Positions 29,181-38,554 of a DNA stretch of 64,000 nucleotides are shown here, piece by piece. Under the pieces are notes generated by a model. It made no database searches, was not told the origin of the DNA, and saw nothing but the letters and a program-made list of their open reading frames with translations. The DNA lies in contig NZ_CP115396.1 of the NCBI RefSeq assembly GCF_027625995.1, positions 3,782,501 to 3,846,500 of the forward strand, in the 5' to 3' direction. The stretch comes from Hymenobacter yonginensis (GTDB lineage: Bacteria; Bacteroidota; Bacteroidia; Cytophagales; Hymenobacteraceae). Position numbers and translations under genes: made by a program. Position 1 is the stretch's first letter. Every line of letters starts with the position of its first letter.

Positions 29181-29221
29181 AACACACCTCCTGCAACCCC
29201 GGAGCCGCTTTGCGACTCTCA

Positions 29222-29530
29222 ATGAATCAAAACCTCACGCTTTTTGTACAAGAGCTTATGGCATACGAAGTAGATAACCTGACCCTGGCCGAAGCCACCC
29301 GGCACGCTCCCTTCGTCGATTACGCCCGCTGCGTAGACGACAGCCAACGCCCCTACAACCACGTAGGCGACTGGCCCGCGGAGGGCGAACTGTACCCGGT
29401 GCGCGTGGTCGACTCGCGCACCGAAGGCATACCGCTCATTCACGTGCTGGGCTTTCAGGGCGAAGCACCCTTTTACAACGCTTTTGCCCCCCACCGCTTC
29501 GAAGTAATTCTGACCGTGTGGCTGAACTAA
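29222..29530 (+). CDS. Small conserved-looking protein of unknown function
   Basis: A 102-residue soluble protein, MNQNLTLFVQELMAYEVDNL at the N-terminus and FNA..PHRFEVILTVWLN-like C-terminal strand. No signal peptide, no membrane segment, no motif that I recognise. Coding-like codon use and a strong terminator 21 bases after the stop support a real gene. ATG 29222 is preferred to a codon four residues upstream. Confidence 0.7.
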   Translation: MNQNLTLFVQELMAYEVDNLTLAEATRHAPFVDYARCVDDSQRPYNHVGDWPAEGELYPVRVVDSRTEGIPLIHVLGFQGEAPFYNAFAPHRFEVILTVWLN

Positions 29531-29758: not shown

Positions 29759-32700
29759 ATGAACGCAGCGCAGTACTGGCACCGGCTGCTCGGCATTCGC
29801 ACCCCGGAGGCAACTACCGTCTGGCTGTTTTTCCTGCACCACTTCCTGCTGGGGGCCGGCACCATGCTGGTGTACGTCACGGCCTCAGTGGTGCTACTGG
29901 AAAGCCACCCCGACCACAGCCTGCCGCTCTCGTACCTGGTGGCGGCGCTGGCGCTGGTGCTGGTGGGGCGCGCCTACGCCCGGCTGGAGCATCGGCTGTC
30001 GTTGCGGTACCTAGCGGTGTGGGTGCTGGTGGCGGTGCTGCTGCTCACGGGTGGAGTGGCGGCGCTGCTGCTGCTGGGCCACTCGCTGGCGGCGGTGCTG
30101 GCGCTGGTGGTGGGCTACCGCCTGATTTATCTGCTCACCAACCTGGAGTTCTGGGGGTTGTCGGCGCTGGTGTTTGATGTGCGGCAGAGCAAGCGCCTGT
30201 TCAGCCTCATCAGCGCCGGCGACCTGCCCGCCAAGGCCCTGGGGGCCGTGCTGGCCACCACCGTCTATGCCCATGCCCAGCTAACGCTGCTGCTGGCAAC
30301 GGCGCTGCTGCTGTATGCCAGCACGTTTTTCACGTTGCGCGCCATTCTGCGGCGGCACCCGCTGCACGCGCGCCACGTGCCGGCGCGGCCCTGGCAGCCG
30401 GCGGCCGTATCGTGGCTGCCGGGCGGCACCGCGCTGGTGAGGGCCATGGGGCTTGGCGTGCTGGCGCTGGCCGCCGTCATGGCCGGCACCGAGTACCTGT
30501 TTTTCGTGAACGTGAAGCAGCGCTACCATCACTCCACCGACCTGATTGTCTACATCGGGCAGATGCTGGCCATTACGTATCTGCTGGCCACGGTCTTTAA
30601 GCTTCTGGTTTCGAGGCCAGCGCTGGAGCGGCTGGGGGCGCGCTGGGCGCTGGCCGTGCTGCCGCTGGCGCTGCTGGTGGCAGTGCTGCTGTTTGTGCCG
30701 CTGCGGGCCCTGGGCCTCACCGAAAACCGGGTGCTGCTGTATTGCTGCACGCTGTATCTGCTGGTGGAAGTGCTGCGCCGGGCGGTGTTCGACCCCATAT
30801 TCTTGGTGCTGCTGCAGCCGCTGAGTGCGGTGCAGCGGCTGCAGGGCCACACTATGCTCAAGGGCCTGTATGAGCCGTTGGGCATGGCGCTGGCGGGGGG
30901 GCTGTTTCTGGGGCTGCCGCTGCTGGGGCTGCGCAGCACCTGGGGCCATCTGGTGTGGATGGGACTGCTGCTGCTGGCGGCGCTGTGGCTGCTGCACCGG
31001 GCCTACCAGCACTACCTGGCCGAACTCCACGAAGCGCTGGAGCTGCGTTTCATCGACCACCGGGAGCTGGCCCTGCCCGCCACGGCCCGGGCCCTGATGC
31101 TGCGCAGCCTTGGCAGTCCGCGCCCCGCCGAGGTGCTGCCCGCGCTGCAGTGGCTGCAGGTACACTTTCCGGAAGCCCTGGCCGAAGCGGCCCCTGCCCT
31201 GCTCCACTACCCCAACGACCAAGTGCGCAGCCAGGCCCTGCTGCTGCTGCCCAGCAGCCAGCTGCCTCCGGAGCTCCTGCACCGGCTGGCCACCTCCGAC
31301 CCCGCCCCACACCTGCGCCAGGCCGCGGCCCAGCGCCTCGGCAGCCACCCCTTGTTGGTATTGGAAACCCTGCAAGCCCTGCTGAACCCCGCCGACGTGG
31401 CGGCCTGCGCCGGGGCGCTGCATGGGCGGCTGGCCACCAAGCCTAACTGCGCACTTGCTCAGGAAAGCCTGGCCCGGCTGCTGGCGCTGCCAACGCCGGC
31501 CGCGCGGCAGGCCGCGCTGGGGCTCAGCCACTACCTGCCCGCCTCGCAGCAGGCGGCGCTGCTGCACCAGGCGCTCCGCAGCCCTGACCCCGGCGTGGTG
31601 CAGGCCGGCCTGCGCGCCGTGCTGCAGGTACCGGCCGCTGTGCACGCCACCCTCGACTTGGCTCCGGCTCTTCTGAAGCTGCTGCCGCACGCTGCCTTCA
31701 GGGCCCCGGCCACCGCCTGCCTCGTGCAGCTCGCCGATGCAGCCCTGCCGCACCTGCGGCAGGCGCTACGGCCGGTGCTACCGGTTACGCCGGCTATGCT
31801 GCACCTGCCGGCTATTCTGGGCCGCATCGGGAGTCCGGCGAGCCGGCTGCTGCTGCTGGAGCTGGTGCAACGCCCCGCGCTGGCGCTGCGCGCCGTTGCT
31901 TTGCGGGCCTTACGCAGCTTTCATCCCCACCCCACCGACCGGCCCCTGTTCAAAAAGCTGCTGCGCGAGGAAATCACGCTGGCGCACCGCCTGCTGCGGG
32001 GGCTGGGCACTGAGCCGGGCGGGCCGCTGGCTGCCAGCCTCGCCTATGAGCTGGCCAGCCTGCAGCAGCGCATCTTCGGCCTGCTGGTGCAGCTCTACGA
32101 AACCACCACCGTAGTGCAGGCGCAGCGCAACCTGGCGCAGGCCAGCCCGGAGCGGCGCGCCAACGCCCTGGAGCTGCTCGACAACGTGCTGCCGCGCAGC
32201 CTCTACCTGGCCCTGCAGGCCGTGCTCGACGACCACCTGCCCCCGGCCGAAAAGGCCCGCCTCCTCAACGACCTGCTGCCCCCGCTGCCCGGCACCGAAG
32301 CGCTGAGCGCGTTTGTGGTGCGCCAGGGCGAGGCCGTATTCTCTGCCTGGACGCTCAGCATGGCGCTGCGCCACTGGCAGCCCACCGCCCACGACCTGCG
32401 CTGGCTGCGGCCCTACCTGCACTCCAGCCAGCCTCTGCTGCAGGAAAGCGCCCTGCTGGCCCTGAACCACCTTCGCATCAATGGCTACGCGCATTTTCAG
32501 CAGCTGCTGGCTGCGCATCCCTCCCTTTCTACCTACCTCATGCACCCCGCCTCCGATACCGCCGCCGTTTCCATCATCGAGCAGGTGCTGCTGCTCAAAA
32601 GCACGGCCCTATTTGCCGAAACGCCCGAAAACGTGCTGACCAGTATTGTGGCCATCCTGCAGGAAGTCAGCTACGCCGATCAGCAGCTCATCTTCCGGAA

Positions 32701-32986
32701 AGGGGAGCTGGGTGCCTGCCTGTTTGTGGTGTACGCCGGCGAGGTCGACATCCTGGACGGGCCGCGGCAGCTGGCGCGCTTCGGCAAAGGCGAGTGTTTC
32801 GGCGAGCTGGCCTTGTTCGATGCCGAACCGCGCTCCGCCTCGGCGGTAGCCGCCGGCCCCGCCCGCCTGTTCCGACTGGATCAGGAGGATTTCTACGAGC
32901 TAATGGAGGAGCGCGGCGAGGTGCTGCGCAACGTAGTGCGGGTGCTTTGCCAGCGCCTGCGCCGCCAGAATGAAATGGTGGGGTGA
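29759..32986 (+). CDS. NTT/MFS-like membrane transporter fused to HEAT-like repeats and a cyclic-nucleotide-binding domain
   Basis: A 1075-residue protein. Residues 1-425 carry about eleven or twelve membrane segments and resemble the ATP/ADP (NTT) branch of the MFS fold. Residues about 440-900 are Leu/Ala-rich helical repeats of HEAT type, without membrane segments. Residues about 925-1060 are a cyclic-nucleotide-binding domain with the phosphate-binding cassette FGKGECFGELALFDAEPRSASAVA (Gly-Glu-Leu-Ala, and an Arg in PRSAS). NTT-HEAT fusions are known from free-living bacteria; their substrates are largely untested. Here the cNMP domain suggests gating or localisation by cAMP. It converges with a gene for a receiver-adenylate cyclase, which could provide the ligand. 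Confidence 0.85.
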   Translation: MNAAQYWHRLLGIRTPEATTVWLFFLHHFLLGAGTMLVYVTASVVLLESHPDHSLPLSYLVAALALVLVGRAYARLEHRLSLRYLAVWVLVAVLLLTGGVAALLLLGHSLAAVLALVVGYRLIYLLTNLEFWGLSALVFDVRQSKRLFSLISAGDLPAKALGAVLATTVYAHAQLTLLLATALLLYASTFFTLRAILRRHPLHARHVPARPWQPAAVSWLPGGTALVRAMGLGVLALAAVMAGTEYLFFVNVKQRYHHSTDLIVYIGQMLAITYLLATVFKLLVSRPALERLGARWALAVLPLALLVAVLLFVPLRALGLTENRVLLYCCTLYLLVEVLRRAVFDPIFLVLLQPLSAVQRLQGHTMLKGLYEPLGMALAGGLFLGLPLLGLRSTWGHLVWMGLLLLAALWLLHRAYQHYLAELHEALELRFIDHRELALPATARALMLRSLGSPRPAEVLPALQWLQVHFPEALAEAAPALLHYPNDQVRSQALLLLPSSQLPPELLHRLATSDPAPHLRQAAAQRLGSHPLLVLETLQALLNPADVAACAGALHGRLATKPNCALAQESLARLLALPTPAARQAALGLSHYLPASQQAALLHQALRSPDPGVVQAGLRAVLQVPAAVHATLDLAPALLKLLPHAAFRAPATACLVQLADAALPHLRQALRPVLPVTPAMLHLPAILGRIGSPASRLLLLELVQRPALALRAVALRALRSFHPHPTDRPLFKKLLREEITLAHRLLRGLGTEPGGPLAASLAYELASLQQRIFGLLVQLYETTTVVQAQRNLAQASPERRANALELLDNVLPRSLYLALQAVLDDHLPPAEKARLLNDLLPPLPGTEALSAFVVRQGEAVFSAWTLSMALRHWQPTAHDLRWLRPYLHSSQPLLQESALLALNHLRINGYAHFQQLLAAHPSLSTYLMHPASDTAAVSIIEQVLLLKSTALFAETPENVLTSIVAILQEVSYADQQLIFRKGELGACLFVVYAGEVDILDGPRQLARFGKGECFGELALFDAEPRSASAVAAGPARLFRLDQEDFYELMEERGEVLRNVVRVLCQRLRRQNEMVG

Positions 32987-33049
32987 CTTTTGGTGACTTT
33001 TGTTAATGAGGTGATGGGGCGATGGGGCGATGGGGTGACAGGTAAAGAA

Positions 33050-33219
33050 AGAACGTCATTCCGAGCAGCGCGAGGAATCTCGCCCGCGGGCTAATCCCAA
33101 AAAACACGGCCGTCTGAGCAAATACGTCAGCCCCCCCCCCTCTCTGAAGGAGAGGGGGCCGGGGGGTGAGGCCCACGTCAGCACGCGAGATGCTTCGGCT
33201 GCGCCTCTGCATGACGTTC
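33050..33219. repeat. Inverted repeat, GTCATTCC family, carrying a nested C-tract element
   Basis: The outer arms are GAACGTCATTCCGAGCAGCG at the left and the mirror of GAACGTCATGCAGAGGCGCA at the right. Nested inside is a second palindrome: a run of ten C (33131-33140) with TCTCTGAAGGAGAGGGGGCC and GGGGGG. Flanking words GATGGGG/CCCCATC-like extend the symmetry. It separates the transporter and cyclase genes, which converge here. Confidence 0.8.
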
Positions 33220-33259
33220 AACCATTCACCTCATCACCCCACTACCTCATCACTAACAA

Positions 33260-34306
33260 TCACTCCAATACCTCATACAGCAGCACCGGCTCGGCTTTGT
33301 TCTTGAGGCGCACCTCACCTACGGCCTGGCACCGGAATGAGTCCTGCACGCGGGTATGGATGGCGTCGGTGATGAGGATCTGGTGGCGCTGGGCGGCATC
33401 CTGCAGGCGCTGACCCAGGTTCACTACATCTCCAATGACGGTGTAGTCGAGGCGGCGCAGCGTGGCCGAGCCGATGTTACCGGACACCATTTCGCCGGAG
33501 CTGATGCCGATGGACACAGCCGGCTCATAGTCGAGGCTTTCGGGCAGGGCCCGCGGGATAGTCTGCACGAGGCTGCGCACGGCCAGCGCGGCATCAATGG
33601 CCCGGTCGAGGTGGTAGTCGCCGCGGAATACGGCCATGACGGCGTCGCCAATGAATTTATCGACGTAGCCGCCCTGCGTGATAATCTCTTTCACCATCTG
33701 GTCGAAGTAGGTGTTAAGCATGGCCACTACCTCCTGGGCCGGCATCTTCTCGGCCAGCATCGTGAAGCCGCAGATATCAATGAAAACCACCGTGGCCTGC
33801 ACGGTTTCGCTGGCCAGCAGCCGGTTGCTGAACTCGGGCCGGGCCATGAACTTGAGCACCGTTTCGTCGACGTAGAGGCGCAGCACCTTGTTTTCCTCCA
33901 TCATGTGCAGGGCCGTGCGCAGCTCCTGCACCTGGGCAATGGTTTTTTCGATGGTCAACTCCAGGTCGTTGAAATCCACCGGCTTGCACACGAAGTCGAA
34001 GGCCCCGCGGTTCATGGCCGTCCGGATGTTGGCCATGTCGCCGTAGGCCGAGACTATCACCGTTTTCACCACCGGGTTGGCCTCGCGCAGGTGCGTGAGC
34101 AGCGTCAGGCCGTCCATCACGGGCATGTTGATGTCGGCCAGCACCACGTCGATGTCGGGGTGGGCGGCCAGCACGGCCAGGGCCTCTTCGCCGTTGCCGG
34201 CAAACAGAAACTCGTAGGCTTCCTCCCGGATTTTGCGGCGGAAGCGCTGCCGGATCAGCAGCTGCAGGTCGGCCTCGTCGTCAACTACCAGAATCTTGGT
34301 TTTCAT
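33260..34306 (-). CDS. Response regulator with class III adenylate cyclase output
   Basis: A 348-residue soluble protein. The receiver domain (1-125) has D9/D10, phospho-acceptor D58 (LADINMP), S86 and K108 (CKPVDF). A short helix leads to a class III cyclase (about 168-348). Metal-binding D177 and D221 (FIDICGF, FIGDAVM), adenine-selecting K217 and D287 (YVDKF, LDYTVIGD) and transition-state N296 and R300 (VVNLGQR) are all present. It should therefore make cAMP when phosphorylation permits. The start overlaps the preceding receiver gene by ATGA, so the two are translationally coupled. Confidence 0.95.
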   Translation of the reverse strand: MKTKILVVDDEADLQLLIRQRFRRKIREEAYEFLFAGNGEEALAVLAAHPDIDVVLADINMPVMDGLTLLTHLREANPVVKTVIVSAYGDMANIRTAMNRGAFDFVCKPVDFNDLELTIEKTIAQVQELRTALHMMEENKVLRLYVDETVLKFMARPEFSNRLLASETVQATVVFIDICGFTMLAEKMPAQEVVAMLNTYFDQMVKEIITQGGYVDKFIGDAVMAVFRGDYHLDRAIDAALAVRSLVQTIPRALPESLDYEPAVSIGISSGEMVSGNIGSATLRRLDYTVIGDVVNLGQRLQDAAQRHQILITDAIHTRVQDSFRCQAVGEVRLKNKAEPVLLYEVLE

Positions 34307-34683
34307 GCGGCCGGCTCCAGGCTAAGCTTGTGTTTGAGGGCGGCAAAGTCCACGGGCTTGGCCAGCAGGTCTTCGGCGCCGTCGTAGCGGGCCTGCTGGC
34401 GGCTGGCGTCGTCGGCGTTGGCCGTGAGCATCAGCACGCGGGTGGCAGGCAGCTCGTGGCTGGCCCGGATGCGCCGCAACAGCTCCAGTCCGCTCATTCC
34501 CGGCATATTGATATCAGAAAGCACCACCACCGGCTCGGTGGGGTGCTGGTGCAGGTACTCCAGGGCGTCCTCGCCCGAAAACACGAACGTGAACAGGTGC
34601 TCCCCGCTGCGAATCTCGCGGCGGAAGCGCAGCTCAAACAACGGCTTCACGTCCGTTTCGTCGTCGACTACCAGTATGTTCAT
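34303..34683 (-). CDS. Single-domain response regulator (receiver)
   Basis: A 126-residue receiver without output domain. Acidic pair D7/D8, phospho-acceptor D57 (VLSDINMPGMSG), T87 and K109 (LAKPVDF) are all present. ATG 34683 (MNILVVDDE) is chosen over an upstream codon that would add 12 residues. It lies between the histidine kinase and the receiver-cyclase on the same strand and overlaps the latter by four bases. It may act as a phosphate shuttle or sink for the kinase. Confidence 0.93.
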   Translation of the reverse strand: MNILVVDDETDVKPLFELRFRREIRSGEHLFTFVFSGEDALEYLHQHPTEPVVVLSDINMPGMSGLELLRRIRASHELPATRVLMLTANADDASRQQARYDGAEDLLAKPVDFAALKHKLSLEPAA

Positions 34684-34779
34684 CGTAGCAGTCTTAATGA
34701 GTAAGAAAATGGCAGACACCTTTCAGAAGAGCAATTTACGTATACTTAACAAATAAATTTTATAACTATTTTACTTGAT
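34684..34779 (-). promoter_or_regulatory. AT-rich spacer, possible promoter of receiver and receiver-cyclase genes
   Basis: The gap after the histidine kinase stop contains TACGTATACTTAACAAATAA and further A/T-rich sequence, in contrast to the flanking GC-rich genes. This could start a separate transcript for the two receiver genes. No consensus -7 box is certain. Confidence 0.4.
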
Positions 34780-36954
34780 TTAGTCTTCAATATCCAGCGG
34801 CAGCCGGATGATAAATTCCGTGAACTCGCCTTCTTGCGTCTCCACCGACAGCGTGCCGCCATGCACGCGCGTTACCATGTCGTAGCTTAACGACAACCCC
34901 AGGCCGGTGCCTTCGCCAGGCGGCTTGGTGGTGAAAAACGGCTGAAACACCTTGTCGGTAAGGGCAGCGGCAATGCCAGTGCCGTTGTCGCGCACCCGGA
35001 TTTCCACTTCGTTCGGATGGCGGCGGGTGCACACCTTCACTTCTGGCTGGTAGGGCCGGGCCAGGTGGCGCTGCTTTTCGGCTACGGCGTAGAAAGCGTT
35101 GGTAAACAGGTTGAGCAGCACCCGGCTCAAATCCTGCGGCACCACTTCCACCAGGCCCATGTGGGGGTCGAGGTGGGTGGTTATGAGCACGTTGAAGTTT
35201 TTGTTTTTGGCCCGCAGGCCGTGGTAGCTCAGGCGCAGGTACTCATCGACCAAGGCGTTGAGGTCGGTGGGGCGGCGCTGGCCGGTGCTGGCGCGCGAGT
35301 GCTCCAGCATGCCCTTCACGATGCTGTCGGCGCGGTGGCCGTGCTCGGCTATCTTCTGCTGCATGCCGTCCAGGTCCTGCAGCAGGGCCCCCAGCACAGC
35401 GCGCCGGGGCGCAGGCAGGGGCTCGGCGTCCAGCTCCTGGCGCAGCTCGGCCAGCAGCTCGCCGCTCACCTCCGCAAAGTTGTTCACGAAGTTGAGCGGG
35501 TTCTGGATTTCGTGGGCCACGCCGGCCGTCAGCTCCCCGAGGCTGGCCATCTTCTCGCGCTGCACCAGCTGGCTCTGGGTGGCCTGCAGCTGGTGCAGGG
35601 CTTGGTCGAGGTTGTCGCGCTGTTGGGCAATCTGGTCGTTGCGCTCGTTTAGCTGACGGTTGGCGCGCTGCTTGAGCACGATGTTGCGCCACAGCAGCGA
35701 GGCCAGCACCAGCAGGCCGCCCAGCCCCGCCAGCAATGCATAGAGCTGCTGGCGCTGGCGGGCGCTTTTCTGGGCCTGCAGCTGGCGGGTTTTGGTGAGC
35801 AGGGCAATCTGCTGCTGCTTTTTATCCAGCTCGAAACCGTAGCGCAGGGCGCTGGTCTGCTCCTGCACCTGCTTGCCCGACAGCGTATCCTTGTATGCTA
35901 CAAATAGTTGCAGGTAGGTAAAGGCCCGCGCCGAATCGTGGCGGGCGGCGTAGGCGCGGGCCAGCACGTCGCTGGCGTTGCGGATGTTTTCGTTGTTGCG
36001 GTGCTGCTGGCTGAGCTGCAGGCCATGCCGGGCCAGCACAATGGCACTGTCGGGCTGGTTGAGGGCCAGGTACACGCGCGCCATAATCAGCTCTGCGGCG
36101 GGCAAACTGAACACGTCGTTGCCGGTGCGGGTAAGCTGGCGGGCACGCTGGCCGTGCAGCAGGGCCAGCGCATGGCGGCCCTGCTCCTCATGCAGCTCGG
36201 CCACGTCAATCTCATCAATGGCCTCGCTCTTGCTGTCACCGAGCTTGCGGTTGAGGGCAATGGCCTGCTGGTAGCTGGCCAGCGCCAGCCGGTAGCGCCG
36301 CTGCTGCTGGTAGGAGTTGCCCAGCACGTTCAGGGCGGAGGCCACAGCGCGCTCATCCCCAAGCTGGCGGGCGTCGCGCAGGGCGGTTTGCAGCACCAGC
36401 ACGGCACTGCGGTAGTCGCCCAGCTGATTGTAGATGTTGCCCAGCGTCACGCGCAGCCGCACCTGGGCCTGCTGGTCGTGCACCTGCTCGGCCAGATGCA
36501 GCCCTTTCAGGCCGGCCTGCATGGCGGGCACGGGGCTGCCCTGCACCATGTAAATCAGACTGAGCTGCATGTACACGTTGCTGAGGCCGGCGCGGTCGGC
36601 GCGGCGCGTAAACAGGCGGCGGGCCTGCTCGGTGTAGTACAGGGCCGGCGTGTAGTCGGCCTGGCGGCGGTAGAGCGTGCCCAGCCGAAGCAGCGCCTGG
36701 CCCTCGCCCATGGGGTCGGTAATCCGGCGGGCTAGGGCCAGCGCCTGCTTGGTTAGGGCAATGGCTTCTACCGGTTGCTGCTTGCCTACCTCCGTCGCCA
36801 GCGCCTGCAGGCTGCGCACCCGGGTGGTATCGGCCTGCGGGTGGGTGGCTACCACCTGGCGCAGACTATCGAGGGCGCGCGACTGCGCCCTTGCCCCGGG
36901 ACCGGTCAGCATTCCTGCCGCCAACAGCAAAACCAGTGGATGACAGCGCAGCAT
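34780..36954 (-). CDS. TPR-containing sensor histidine kinase
   Basis: A 724-residue protein. A signal peptide (about 1-24) is followed by a periplasmic TPR array (about 40-345, for example GNIYNQLGDYRSAVLVLQTA and GNSYQQQRRYRLALASYQQA). A membrane segment lies near 402-425, then a coiled coil with NDQIAQQRDNLDQALHQLQA. HisKA-type His481 is in GVAHEIQNPLNFVNNF. The ATPase domain has NLFTNAFYAV, DNGTGI, FFTTKPPGEGTGLGLSL. ATG 36954 is preferred to a GTG 15 codons upstream. The partner receivers are directly downstream. The periplasmic stimulus is unknown. Confidence 0.92.
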   Translation of the reverse strand: MLRCHPLVLLLAAGMLTGPGARAQSRALDSLRQVVATHPQADTTRVRSLQALATEVGKQQPVEAIALTKQALALARRITDPMGEGQALLRLGTLYRRQADYTPALYYTEQARRLFTRRADRAGLSNVYMQLSLIYMVQGSPVPAMQAGLKGLHLAEQVHDQQAQVRLRVTLGNIYNQLGDYRSAVLVLQTALRDARQLGDERAVASALNVLGNSYQQQRRYRLALASYQQAIALNRKLGDSKSEAIDEIDVAELHEEQGRHALALLHGQRARQLTRTGNDVFSLPAAELIMARVYLALNQPDSAIVLARHGLQLSQQHRNNENIRNASDVLARAYAARHDSARAFTYLQLFVAYKDTLSGKQVQEQTSALRYGFELDKKQQQIALLTKTRQLQAQKSARQRQQLYALLAGLGGLLVLASLLWRNIVLKQRANRQLNERNDQIAQQRDNLDQALHQLQATQSQLVQREKMASLGELTAGVAHEIQNPLNFVNNFAEVSGELLAELRQELDAEPLPAPRRAVLGALLQDLDGMQQKIAEHGHRADSIVKGMLEHSRASTGQRRPTDLNALVDEYLRLSYHGLRAKNKNFNVLITTHLDPHMGLVEVVPQDLSRVLLNLFTNAFYAVAEKQRHLARPYQPEVKVCTRRHPNEVEIRVRDNGTGIAAALTDKVFQPFFTTKPPGEGTGLGLSLSYDMVTRVHGGTLSVETQEGEFTEFIIRLPLDIED

Positions 36955-37041
36955 AAGCAGCAGGCACAAGATAGTGGCAGCATAGCCAGGGTAAAGCACC
37001 CGCGGAAAGCGGCCCGCAGGCTTCAGAAACGCCGGCCTGCG

Positions 37042-37548
37042 CTAGCCGCCGGCAGCACCCAGCAGTAGCAGCTTGCCCGCGCCACTGAGCAGCAGCAGCA
37101 GTGTAATCCATTCCTTCCGGCCCGGATAATCGGGATTGATGGCCACACCCATCCGGTAGCCCTGCACGTCTACCAGGCTGCCCAGCCGGGGGGTGGTATA
37201 CATGCCCGACGGGTCGGGCTGCACAGGTTCCTTGGTGGTTCCCGGCAGTTCGCCGGCGTGCTCAAGCTGCGCGAAGTCGCCGTCTACCTCATCGGAGCCC
37301 CAGTAAACGGCCGGGCTATGCTGCAGCGCCGGCGAGCCCGCCTTCACGCCCGTTACCCGCAGCTCGGCCTGGTAAGTGGTTTCGAGCGGGTCGATGTTGG
37401 CCGTGAACACCTTGAAAACAGCCAGCAGTGGCTTTTCCACGTCCGGCTTTTCCCGGTCCAGCAGCTTGCCGTAGTGCGCAACGGCCTTATCGAAGTCCGC
37501 TTCCGGCACCCGGTAGTCAACAATACATCTTCGCGGATTGTGCAGCAT
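37042..37548 (-). CDS. VOC/glyoxalase-like paralog A, with hydrophobic C-terminal tail
   Basis: A 168-residue protein. It shares with the next two genes the pattern 'IDYRVPxxDFxxAVxHYxxL' at the N-terminus, 'PAVYWGS' in the middle and 'VDVQGYRMGVAINPDYP' near the C-terminus, which resembles half of a VOC (glyoxalase/bleomycin-resistance) fold. Unlike the other two it ends in a strongly hydrophobic tail (residues 147-166, EWITLLLLLSGAGKLLLLG), so it could be tail-anchored in a membrane. ATG 37548 is chosen over codons upstream. The kinase gene follows 87 bases downstream on the same strand. Family assignment is tentative. Confidence 0.7.
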   Translation of the reverse strand: MLHNPRRCIVDYRVPEADFDKAVAHYGKLLDREKPDVEKPLLAVFKVFTANIDPLETTYQAELRVTGVKAGSPALQHSPAVYWGSDEVDGDFAQLEHAGELPGTTKEPVQPDPSGMYTTPRLGSLVDVQGYRMGVAINPDYPGRKEWITLLLLLSGAGKLLLLGAAGG

Positions 37549-37610
37549 GGCCAGTGGGCGGATAAGAAGGCAGACGCAGAAAGGCAACCGGGCAGTATGG
37601 CGCGCGGCGG

Positions 37611-38042
37611 CTATGGAAAGTCCGGATTGATGATGAAGCCCGTGCGGTTGCCAAACGCATCCACAATGCCCGCCTCCCGCTCAGCAAAGCTTCGGCGCCG
37701 CACCTGGCTGCCCGCCTCCGCAGGTTCCTCCGCCTCTGACGGCTCCTCGGCGGCTTCTTCCGGCGCGCGTGGCGCAACAACGTCCATGGCATCGGTGCCC
37801 CAGAATACAAGCGGCACGTTGTCGGTGGGGGTGGCGTCTTCGGGCACGCAGGTCAGGCACAGCTCGCACTGAAAATACTCGTCGTCGTTGGGCACCTTGA
37901 ATACTTCAATCACCAGCTGCTCCTCGGGCATAGGATCGGGCAGCTGCGGCAGAAACAGGCCGGCGTAATGGCGCACGGCTTGGGCGAAGTCCTTCTTCGG
38001 AATCCGGTATTCAATCAGTACCCGGCGGGCCGTGTCGCTCAT
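37611..38042 (-). CDS. VOC/glyoxalase-like paralog B
   Basis: A 143-residue soluble protein with the shared start 'VLIEYRIPKKDFAQAVRHYA', middle 'VPLVFWGTDA' and end 'IVDAFGNRTGFIINPDFP'. A Glu/Ala-rich insertion (about 90-115, RAPEEAAEEPSEAEEPAEAG) precedes the C-terminal block. ATG 38042 is used because the longer frame begins with TTG. It is 62 bases upstream of paralog A and 77 bases downstream of paralog C. Confidence 0.7.
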   Translation of the reverse strand: MSDTARRVLIEYRIPKKDFAQAVRHYAGLFLPQLPDPMPEEQLVIEVFKVPNDDEYFQCELCLTCVPEDATPTDNVPLVFWGTDAMDVVAPRAPEEAAEEPSEAEEPAEAGSQVRRRSFAEREAGIVDAFGNRTGFIINPDFP

Positions 38043-38119
38043 GGCTGCGTGCGTCAAGTCGTGTGGTATCTACTGAGGATGCGTCGGCTGGCATAGCCGT
38101 GGGGCTTGGGCACCCCGCT

Positions 38120-38554
38120 TTAGACCTCCGATGGTGGCTCTTTCGCCAGCGTCAGCGGGTAATCGGGATTGATGGACCCAAACCGGTTGTCGAAGGCATC
38201 GATGACACTGGTTCGGTAGTGCCCGCCTTGGTCGGATACTGGCGGCTCGTCCTGCGGGCCGGGTTTCTGGCCATTCAGGAGGTCGTCATATGCGTCCTGA
38301 ATACTGCTTTCGGTAAACCAGTACACCACCGGCCCCAGCACCGTGCTACCCTCTGCCATGGCCCGGATACCCACGTAAAATAGCCGTTCCTTCTTTTTCT
38401 TCTTGTAGGCCGTCAGCAACACCAGCTCCGGCTGGTCAGTTTTGCGGTGGCTGACGCCAAACACGCCTTCATAATAGAGGATGGCGTTGGCAAACTCCGC
38501 CTGCGTCACCCGAAACTCTATGGCACATTGCTTTACATTGTACTTGGCAGCCAT
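38120..38554 (-). CDS. VOC/glyoxalase-like paralog C
   Basis: A 144-residue protein. The shared blocks read 'CAIEFRVTQAEFANAILYYEG', 'PVVYWFTESS' and 'VIDAFDNRFGSINPDYP'. A Lys-rich stretch (YKKKKKER) lies in the first half. It is the first gene of a minus-strand run that continues through paralogs B and A into the kinase and receiver genes. No catalytic metal-ligand set can be read with confidence, so a binding rather than catalytic role is as likely. Confidence 0.7.
   Translation of the reverse strand: MAAKYNVKQCAIEFRVTQAEFANAILYYEGVFGVSHRKTDQPELVLLTAYKKKKKERLFYVGIRAMAEGSTVLGPVVYWFTESSIQDAYDDLLNGQKPGPQDEPPVSDQGGHYRTSVIDAFDNRFGSINPDYPLTLAKEPPSEV

Follow-up and report, generated by a model that had tools for sequence, protein, structure and literature searches.

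A sensor kinase, a receiver-adenylate cyclase and a transporter-like cyclic-nucleotide reader encoded side by side in Hymenobacter yonginensis suggest that cAMP controls a transporter

The locus described here spans positions 29759-36999 of the window, the name used below for the whole 64,000-nucleotide stretch of Hymenobacter yonginensis DNA that was analysed. It consists of four genes, with one gap between convergent stop codons:

29759..32986, plus strand: NTT-HEAT-cNMP membrane protein, 1075 aa; NTT-type transporter (about residues 1-430), HEAT-like helical solenoid (about 440-930) and cNMP-binding domain (970-1051), with cNMP-domain residues E1016/R1025 and, in the C-helix, R1066-x4-N1071
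32987..33259, no strand: gap of 273 bp
33260..34306, minus strand: receiver-adenylate cyclase, 348 aa; receiver 5-119 (D58) and class III cyclase 168-339
34303..34719, minus strand: lone receiver, 138 aa; D69 and K121
34780..36999, minus strand: TPR sensor histidine kinase, 739 aa; hydrophobic N-terminal segment, TPRs, hydrophobic segment 419-437, HisKA (H496) and HATPase 621-736

The minus-strand genes are transcribed in the order TPR histidine kinase, lone receiver and receiver-cyclase, the last two overlapping by 4 nt, and the plus-strand NTT-HEAT-cNMP gene points at the cyclase gene. A preliminary description of this DNA had listed the same kinase, lone receiver, receiver-cyclase and NTT-HEAT-cNMP neighbour, with the genes of cyclase and reader converging. 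Reading of the domains and residues confirmed the parts, and the two genes do lie on opposite strands with their stop codons 273 bp apart. A weak terminator-like hairpin (one found against 0.3 expected) is located at 32962-32981, within the end of the NTT gene. This gene is directly preceded by a frame of 106 aa (29210-29530) that has neither a Pfam nor an NCBIfam match and is found with 95% identity in locus L082 of genome G063. At 37042-38554 there are three adjacent minus-strand frames (181, 148 and 144 aa, the first one with no Pfam match) that look like tandem paralogues, because each contains a version of the motif 'I(E/D)YR(V/I)P..(D/E)F..A..HY' and ends near 'INPDYP'.

The kinase has the HisKA and HATPase domains and the receivers carry the Asp and Lys of two-component systems. 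The HisKA domain scored 25.9 where the Pfam threshold is 26.9, and contains the H-box His; the membrane segments of the kinase are predicted from hydropathy alone. The locus had been described as a phosphorelay, a term that we have abandoned, as a domain search of the four locus proteins found neither an HPt domain nor a hybrid kinase among them; direct transfer from the kinase to the receiver-cyclase would be the simpler arrangement.

In the cyclase the claim that every catalytic residue can be read was borne out, as the class III set is complete: two metal-binding Asp (D177 and D221), a Lys/Thr pair (K217 and T289), N296 and R300. The closest solved relative is Pseudomonas CyaB (4.5e-36, 128 bits), with the metal Asp, the Lys and the Thr at the same positions of the alignment. 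We take the Lys/Thr pair to be the class IIIb set and CyaB to be a class IIIb enzyme. Unlike CyaB, the window protein has an N-terminal receiver and its gene is linked to those of a kinase, a lone receiver and a transporter. The Thr of the pair was found in all 52 orthologous gene copies of the fetched loci, some genomes having more than one copy. According to the part of the source available to us (PMC3383692), a Thr of this kind is believed to be predictive of regulation by bicarbonate, and the window cyclase, having this residue, may respond in the same way.

The neighbouring membrane protein contains NTT, HEAT and cNMP parts in that order, although the HEAT_2 match and the TLC score of its NTT part both fall under their Pfam cut-offs. 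Used as sole query, the NTT part matched no solved chain up to an E value of 1. A profile (A6) matched Chlamydia NTT1 at 1.1e-26 and AtNTT1 at 2.7e-23, and the structural alignment recovered the full NTT variant of the MFS fold, at 15-16% identity to characterised NTTs. Sequence homology and fold thus support membership in the NTT family, with nucleotide transport as a putative activity. Compared with the plastid and chlamydial ATP/ADP translocators at this identity (AtNTT1 and Chlamydia pneumoniae NTT1), the window protein adds the HEAT and cNMP parts. SthK and CNG chains were matched by the cNMP domain, while the whole-length Foldseek rows against cyclic-nucleotide-gated proteins had a TM of about 0.11. 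SthK, the CNG channels and SpSLC9C1 have a membrane transport part under the control of a C-terminal cNMP domain, as we presume here, but the transport part of the window protein is of NTT/MFS type and not a channel or a Na+/H+ exchanger, and a HEAT solenoid lies in between. The divergence from characterised NTTs could also mean that the NTT part has ceased to carry a substrate and that the protein acts as a sensor of nucleotides or a scaffold in the membrane, with a HEAT-cNMP part that would signal onward on binding cAMP, and HEAT-cNMP proteins without any NTT part do exist (L183-L187), one of them (L187) encoded convergently with a second receiver-cyclase. We consider this quite improbable given the full NTT fold and the charged membrane-domain residues that are invariant in 19 aligned relatives (E17, E77, R142, R146, D155, K159, K253, K281, E337, R360, H364 and K368).

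The preliminary description had proposed conservation of the neighbourhood in Cytophagales as a check, and we counted the pair in 241 genomes of the order, taking a best match of 1e-70 or lower as a close transporter and at least 249 bits as a cyclase orthologue. The close NTT-HEAT-cNMP protein was found in 48 genomes and the receiver-cyclase in 64; both were present in 42, the transporter only in 6, the cyclase only in 22 and neither in 171 (Fisher p 2.8e-24, phylogeny ignored). The linkage proved to be kept, with the pair at 10 kb or less in 34 of the 42 genomes; in six others it was farther apart on the same contig (13 kb to 4 Mb) and in two on different contigs. Within the genus (111 genomes, phylogeny again ignored) both were found in 92, the transporter only in 1, a strong cyclase only in 2 and neither in 16, five genomes with nothing but weak PF00211 matches being scored as lacking the cyclase; scoring them as having it gives 92, 1, 7 and 11.

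The relative orientation of the pair is far from fixed. In 38 loci (the window plus 37 fetched ones that are not a random sample) it is convergent in 18, divergent in 3 and same-strand in 17, the cyclase being downstream in 9 of the latter and upstream in 8. A lone receiver was found near the cyclase in 33 of these loci and a kinase in 36, with a kinase profile built from the window kinase alone and gene lists made by a longest-frame rule from which short or overlapping genes can escape (for example the cNMP gene of L054). In L135 and L138, from the family f3 that we take to be Spirosomaceae, a single same-strand run contains NTT, kinase, second kinase, receiver and cyclase, and L111 has the same run plus a peptidase-like gene preceding the receiver. 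A linkage that outlasts rearrangement argues for joint function over mere inherited gene order. At the level of the class, the NTT-HEAT-cNMP protein was found in only 19 of 295 genomes, and among 20 stretches from 17 genomes, some ending at contig edges, the profile detected an adjoining cyclase only in L111 and L115. A separate scan of genome contigs yielded two loci, from Hymenobacter sp. BT190 and an uncultured Dyadobacter.

Cyclases of other architecture also adjoin the same protein. The neighbour in L049 (G028), L044 (G043) and L045 (G055) is a 388-aa receiver-cyclase that carries a Lys/Asp pair, comes with a TPR kinase of its own and has 28-29% identity to the window protein in the cyclase domain, and in L059 (G061) and L060 (G007) it is a Reg_prop-Y_Y_Y cyclase. 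Another Reg_prop-Y_Y_Y cyclase lies in L115, from the distant G395, where the frame coordinates place it on the same strand and 53 bases upstream. The cyclase domains of the 388-aa proteins and of the L059 and L060 proteins share 52-58% identity, so these cases are not all independent and represent one cyclase lineage with two kinds of sensor; that of L115 has 37-39% identity to both. Three of these genomes (G043, G061 and G007) also keep the Lys/Thr receiver-cyclase elsewhere. In L076 (G097) a ferredoxin-cyclase without the usual substrate lysine adjoins a second NTT copy, and it is in G066 that the second receiver-cyclase converges with L187.

The HEAT-cNMP proteins without NTT (L183, L184, L185, L186 and L187) have 479-552 aa and keep the Glu/Arg pair. 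Far NTT-HEAT paralogues of about 1050-1090 aa were found in L123-L127, L155-L157, L161 and L162, followed by a protein of 470-500 aa and one of about 1050 aa, sizes that recur in most of these loci; in L123 the followers are by Pfam DUF4062-like (under the cut-off) and nSTAND1-WD40. Their cNMP cassettes are degenerate where read. Nine rows of this far type (type B) were read for the cassette, none with Glu/Arg and one with Asp/Arg (L148), and in several further type-B proteins the profile found no cNMP match. The far paralogues of L121, L151, L152 and L153 adjoin a protein of 650-680 aa, a HAMP-SpoIIE phosphatase in L121 and L153, and in L153 a TIR/DUF4062-like protein comes next.

To see how many cyclases and readers share a genome we counted PF00211 and PF00027 matches. 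In G001, the nearest relative among the genomes compared, and in G063, G006 and G057 there is one PF00211 match, in G097 two, in G534 one, in G408 three, in G073 one (weak), and in G012 and G032 none, counts that a further class III cyclase may escape at the first pass of the genome search. No CYTH or class I cyclase was matched in G001, G063, G006, G097 or G057. Fifty of the 111 genus genomes have exactly one PF00211 match, a strong one, and 48 of these have the transporter. The five close genomes (G001, G063, G006, G097 and G057) contain 28 PF00027 matches, and the Glu/Arg pair is present in eight, seven NTT-HEAT-cNMP proteins and one HEAT-cNMP protein (G097); the other 20 are without it, including two Crp-type HTH proteins of G001 (L171 and L172). 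In three of the five (G001, G063 and G057) there is consequently a single class III cyclase and a single intact PF00027 reader, and the two adjoin, while G006 has one cyclase and two readers. Receiver-cNMP proteins whose cassette is of the FGY/LGY form, without Glu/Arg, occur in L172 (receiver-cNMP-HTH_Crp by Pfam), L173, L177, L180, L181 and L182, and proteins of this kind are also present where the genome has no strong class III cyclase (G012, G032 and G073).

These counts bear on a reading in which the kinase-receiver-cyclase cassette is a general source of cAMP, with the transporter as one of several targets or with the main targets elsewhere. The molecule is diffusible, larger genomes have more PF00027 matches (15 in G408 and 27 in G534, where the only cassettes read were the transporter's own), and 22 of the 241 order genomes have the cyclase without a close transporter (for example in L150, L158-L160 and L165-L168). 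We regard it as unlikely for the locus, since G001, G063 and G057 have no other PF00027 match that keeps Glu/Arg, the tight linkage persists through rearrangement and a strong cyclase lacks the transporter in just 2 of the 111 genus genomes. The first proposal is partly supported: its idea of a local unit of kinase, cyclase and reader gains strength from linkage, co-occurrence, the alternative cyclases and the one-to-one count in three of five genomes, and the description of it as self-contained fits G001, G063 and G057, but not those 22 order genomes.

The identity of the ligand depends on the reader. The phosphate-binding cassette has its Glu and Arg (E1016 and R1025), and among 73 related cNMP domains, those scoring above 120 bits in the fetched loci, the Glu/Arg pair is kept in 68, Asp/Arg is found in four (L120, L145, L147 and L148) and neither in one (L063). 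In this exception, which comes from G106, the NTT part is moreover divided over two frames, and the best match to the cyclase in this genome (2.0e-13) is not a close orthologue. The window protein has no Ser/Thr at the base-contact position of CRP, where N1071 stands by its spacing from R1066; in CRP numbering we take the compared positions to be R123/S128. Asn is found there in 42 of the 73 domains, Asp in 21 and Val in 1, with 9 unread by the pattern, and split readers, encoded as separate genes, have Asp instead of Asn. CRP-family proteins have Ser/Thr at the corresponding position for cAMP and PycTIR a cUMP-specific Asn, as stated in the part of the source available to us (PMC11224242). 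The Lys/Thr cyclase orthologue is found beside both Asn and Asp readers, which makes it unlikely that this residue marks cUMP alone. Judged from the residues, N1071 would make a CRP-like choice of ligand less secure, and not the binding of some cyclic nucleotide.

The same Asn recalls Pycsar, where, in the available part of its description (PMC11224242), a class III-type cyclase gene (PycC) likewise lies beside that of a cNMP-binding effector (PycTIR or PycTM). When a phage attacks, the cyclase would then produce cUMP or cCMP, and the membrane protein with the cNMP domain would harm the cell. PADLOC Pycsar models match both proteins, with best values of 5.6e-25 for the cyclase and 5.8e-13 for the cNMP domain, and the spacing R1066-x4-N1071 is that of R138/N143 in PsPycTIR, whose Asn is given as cUMP-specific in the portion of the literature available to us. 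Nevertheless we consider a defence role very improbable. The second metal Asp of the window cyclase is preceded by Lys four positions before and by Ile two before, where EaPycC has R142 and Q144 and AnPycC has K104 two before, so that the pyrimidine-selecting residues, as far as the accessible accounts of these two enzymes give them, are absent. The CyaB match (128 bits) is far above that to 7r65 (36 bits), which we take to be a PycC entry. No PycTIR or PycTM effector is present, the PADLOC matches covering only residues 952-1074 of the NTT-HEAT-cNMP protein found in its place. Furthermore, split readers beside the same orthologous cyclase carry Asp and not Asn, and the locus differs from Pycsar in its adenylate-cyclase residues, its two-component input, its transporter effector and its broad retention, the pair being kept in 92 of 111 genus genomes.

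The NTT-HEAT-cNBD fusion itself is not new. Major, Embley and Williams (2017) reported it with the same domain order, the cNBD having a gene of its own in some relatives but being fused in others, and guessed that cAMP from an adenylate cyclase adjusts its transport; they describe NTT-HEAT proteins as widely distributed among bacteria, and those of cyanobacteria and Chlamydia as uncharacterised (PMC5381601, of which part was available to us). In that part no cyclase, receiver or kinase partner is named, whereas here a partner was found and its conservation tested. No description of the cyclase-kinase neighbourhood appeared among literature titles and the starts of abstracts, a search that most subscription papers lay outside. 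The original claim that such a circuit is undescribed therefore holds for the cyclase and kinase neighbourhood, which is apparently unreported, but not for the fusion or the cAMP proposal.

Altogether, tests that could have failed have strengthened the idea of a circuit. We think it probable that the two-component system sets a level of cAMP that is read mainly by the adjacent transporter and gates it through the HEAT solenoid. With its TPRs the membrane kinase would sense some signal, probably in the periplasm, and it would phosphorylate the receiver of the receiver-cyclase; the lone receiver would be a further target or serve as a sink for phosphate. In the next step the class IIIb cyclase would make cAMP, which may bind the C-terminal domain of the NTT-HEAT-cNMP protein through E1016/R1025, and the resulting shift would travel along the solenoid, reach the NTT-type transporter on its cytoplasmic face and either open or close the exchange of a nucleotide-like substrate. 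More tentatively, it is possible that in at least part of the genus the sole class III cyclase and the sole intact PF00027 reader form a private, non-transcriptional circuit, in which a signal from outside would set the level of cAMP for the single purpose of gating a nucleotide transporter via the HEAT solenoid. As the same protein has linked cyclases of other architecture in relatives, such a wiring would be ancient and would have been used more than once.

The unusual feature of this locus is that in three of five close genomes it accounts for all the class III cyclases and intact PF00027 readers detected. A genome with one of each would offer unusually clean conditions for the study of cAMP, and the linkage provides the NTT-HEAT proteins with a testable partner and ligand. 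The side-by-side arrangement of sensor, cyclase and transporter-like reader suggests that cAMP here controls a transporter. If this is true, cAMP would be in these bacteria a dedicated transport signal and not a transcription signal of the CRP type, because the two Crp-type HTH proteins of G001 that were examined (L171 and L172) lack the phosphate-binding pair, and the locus would be a compact natural device through which a signal from outside comes to control nucleotide exchange.
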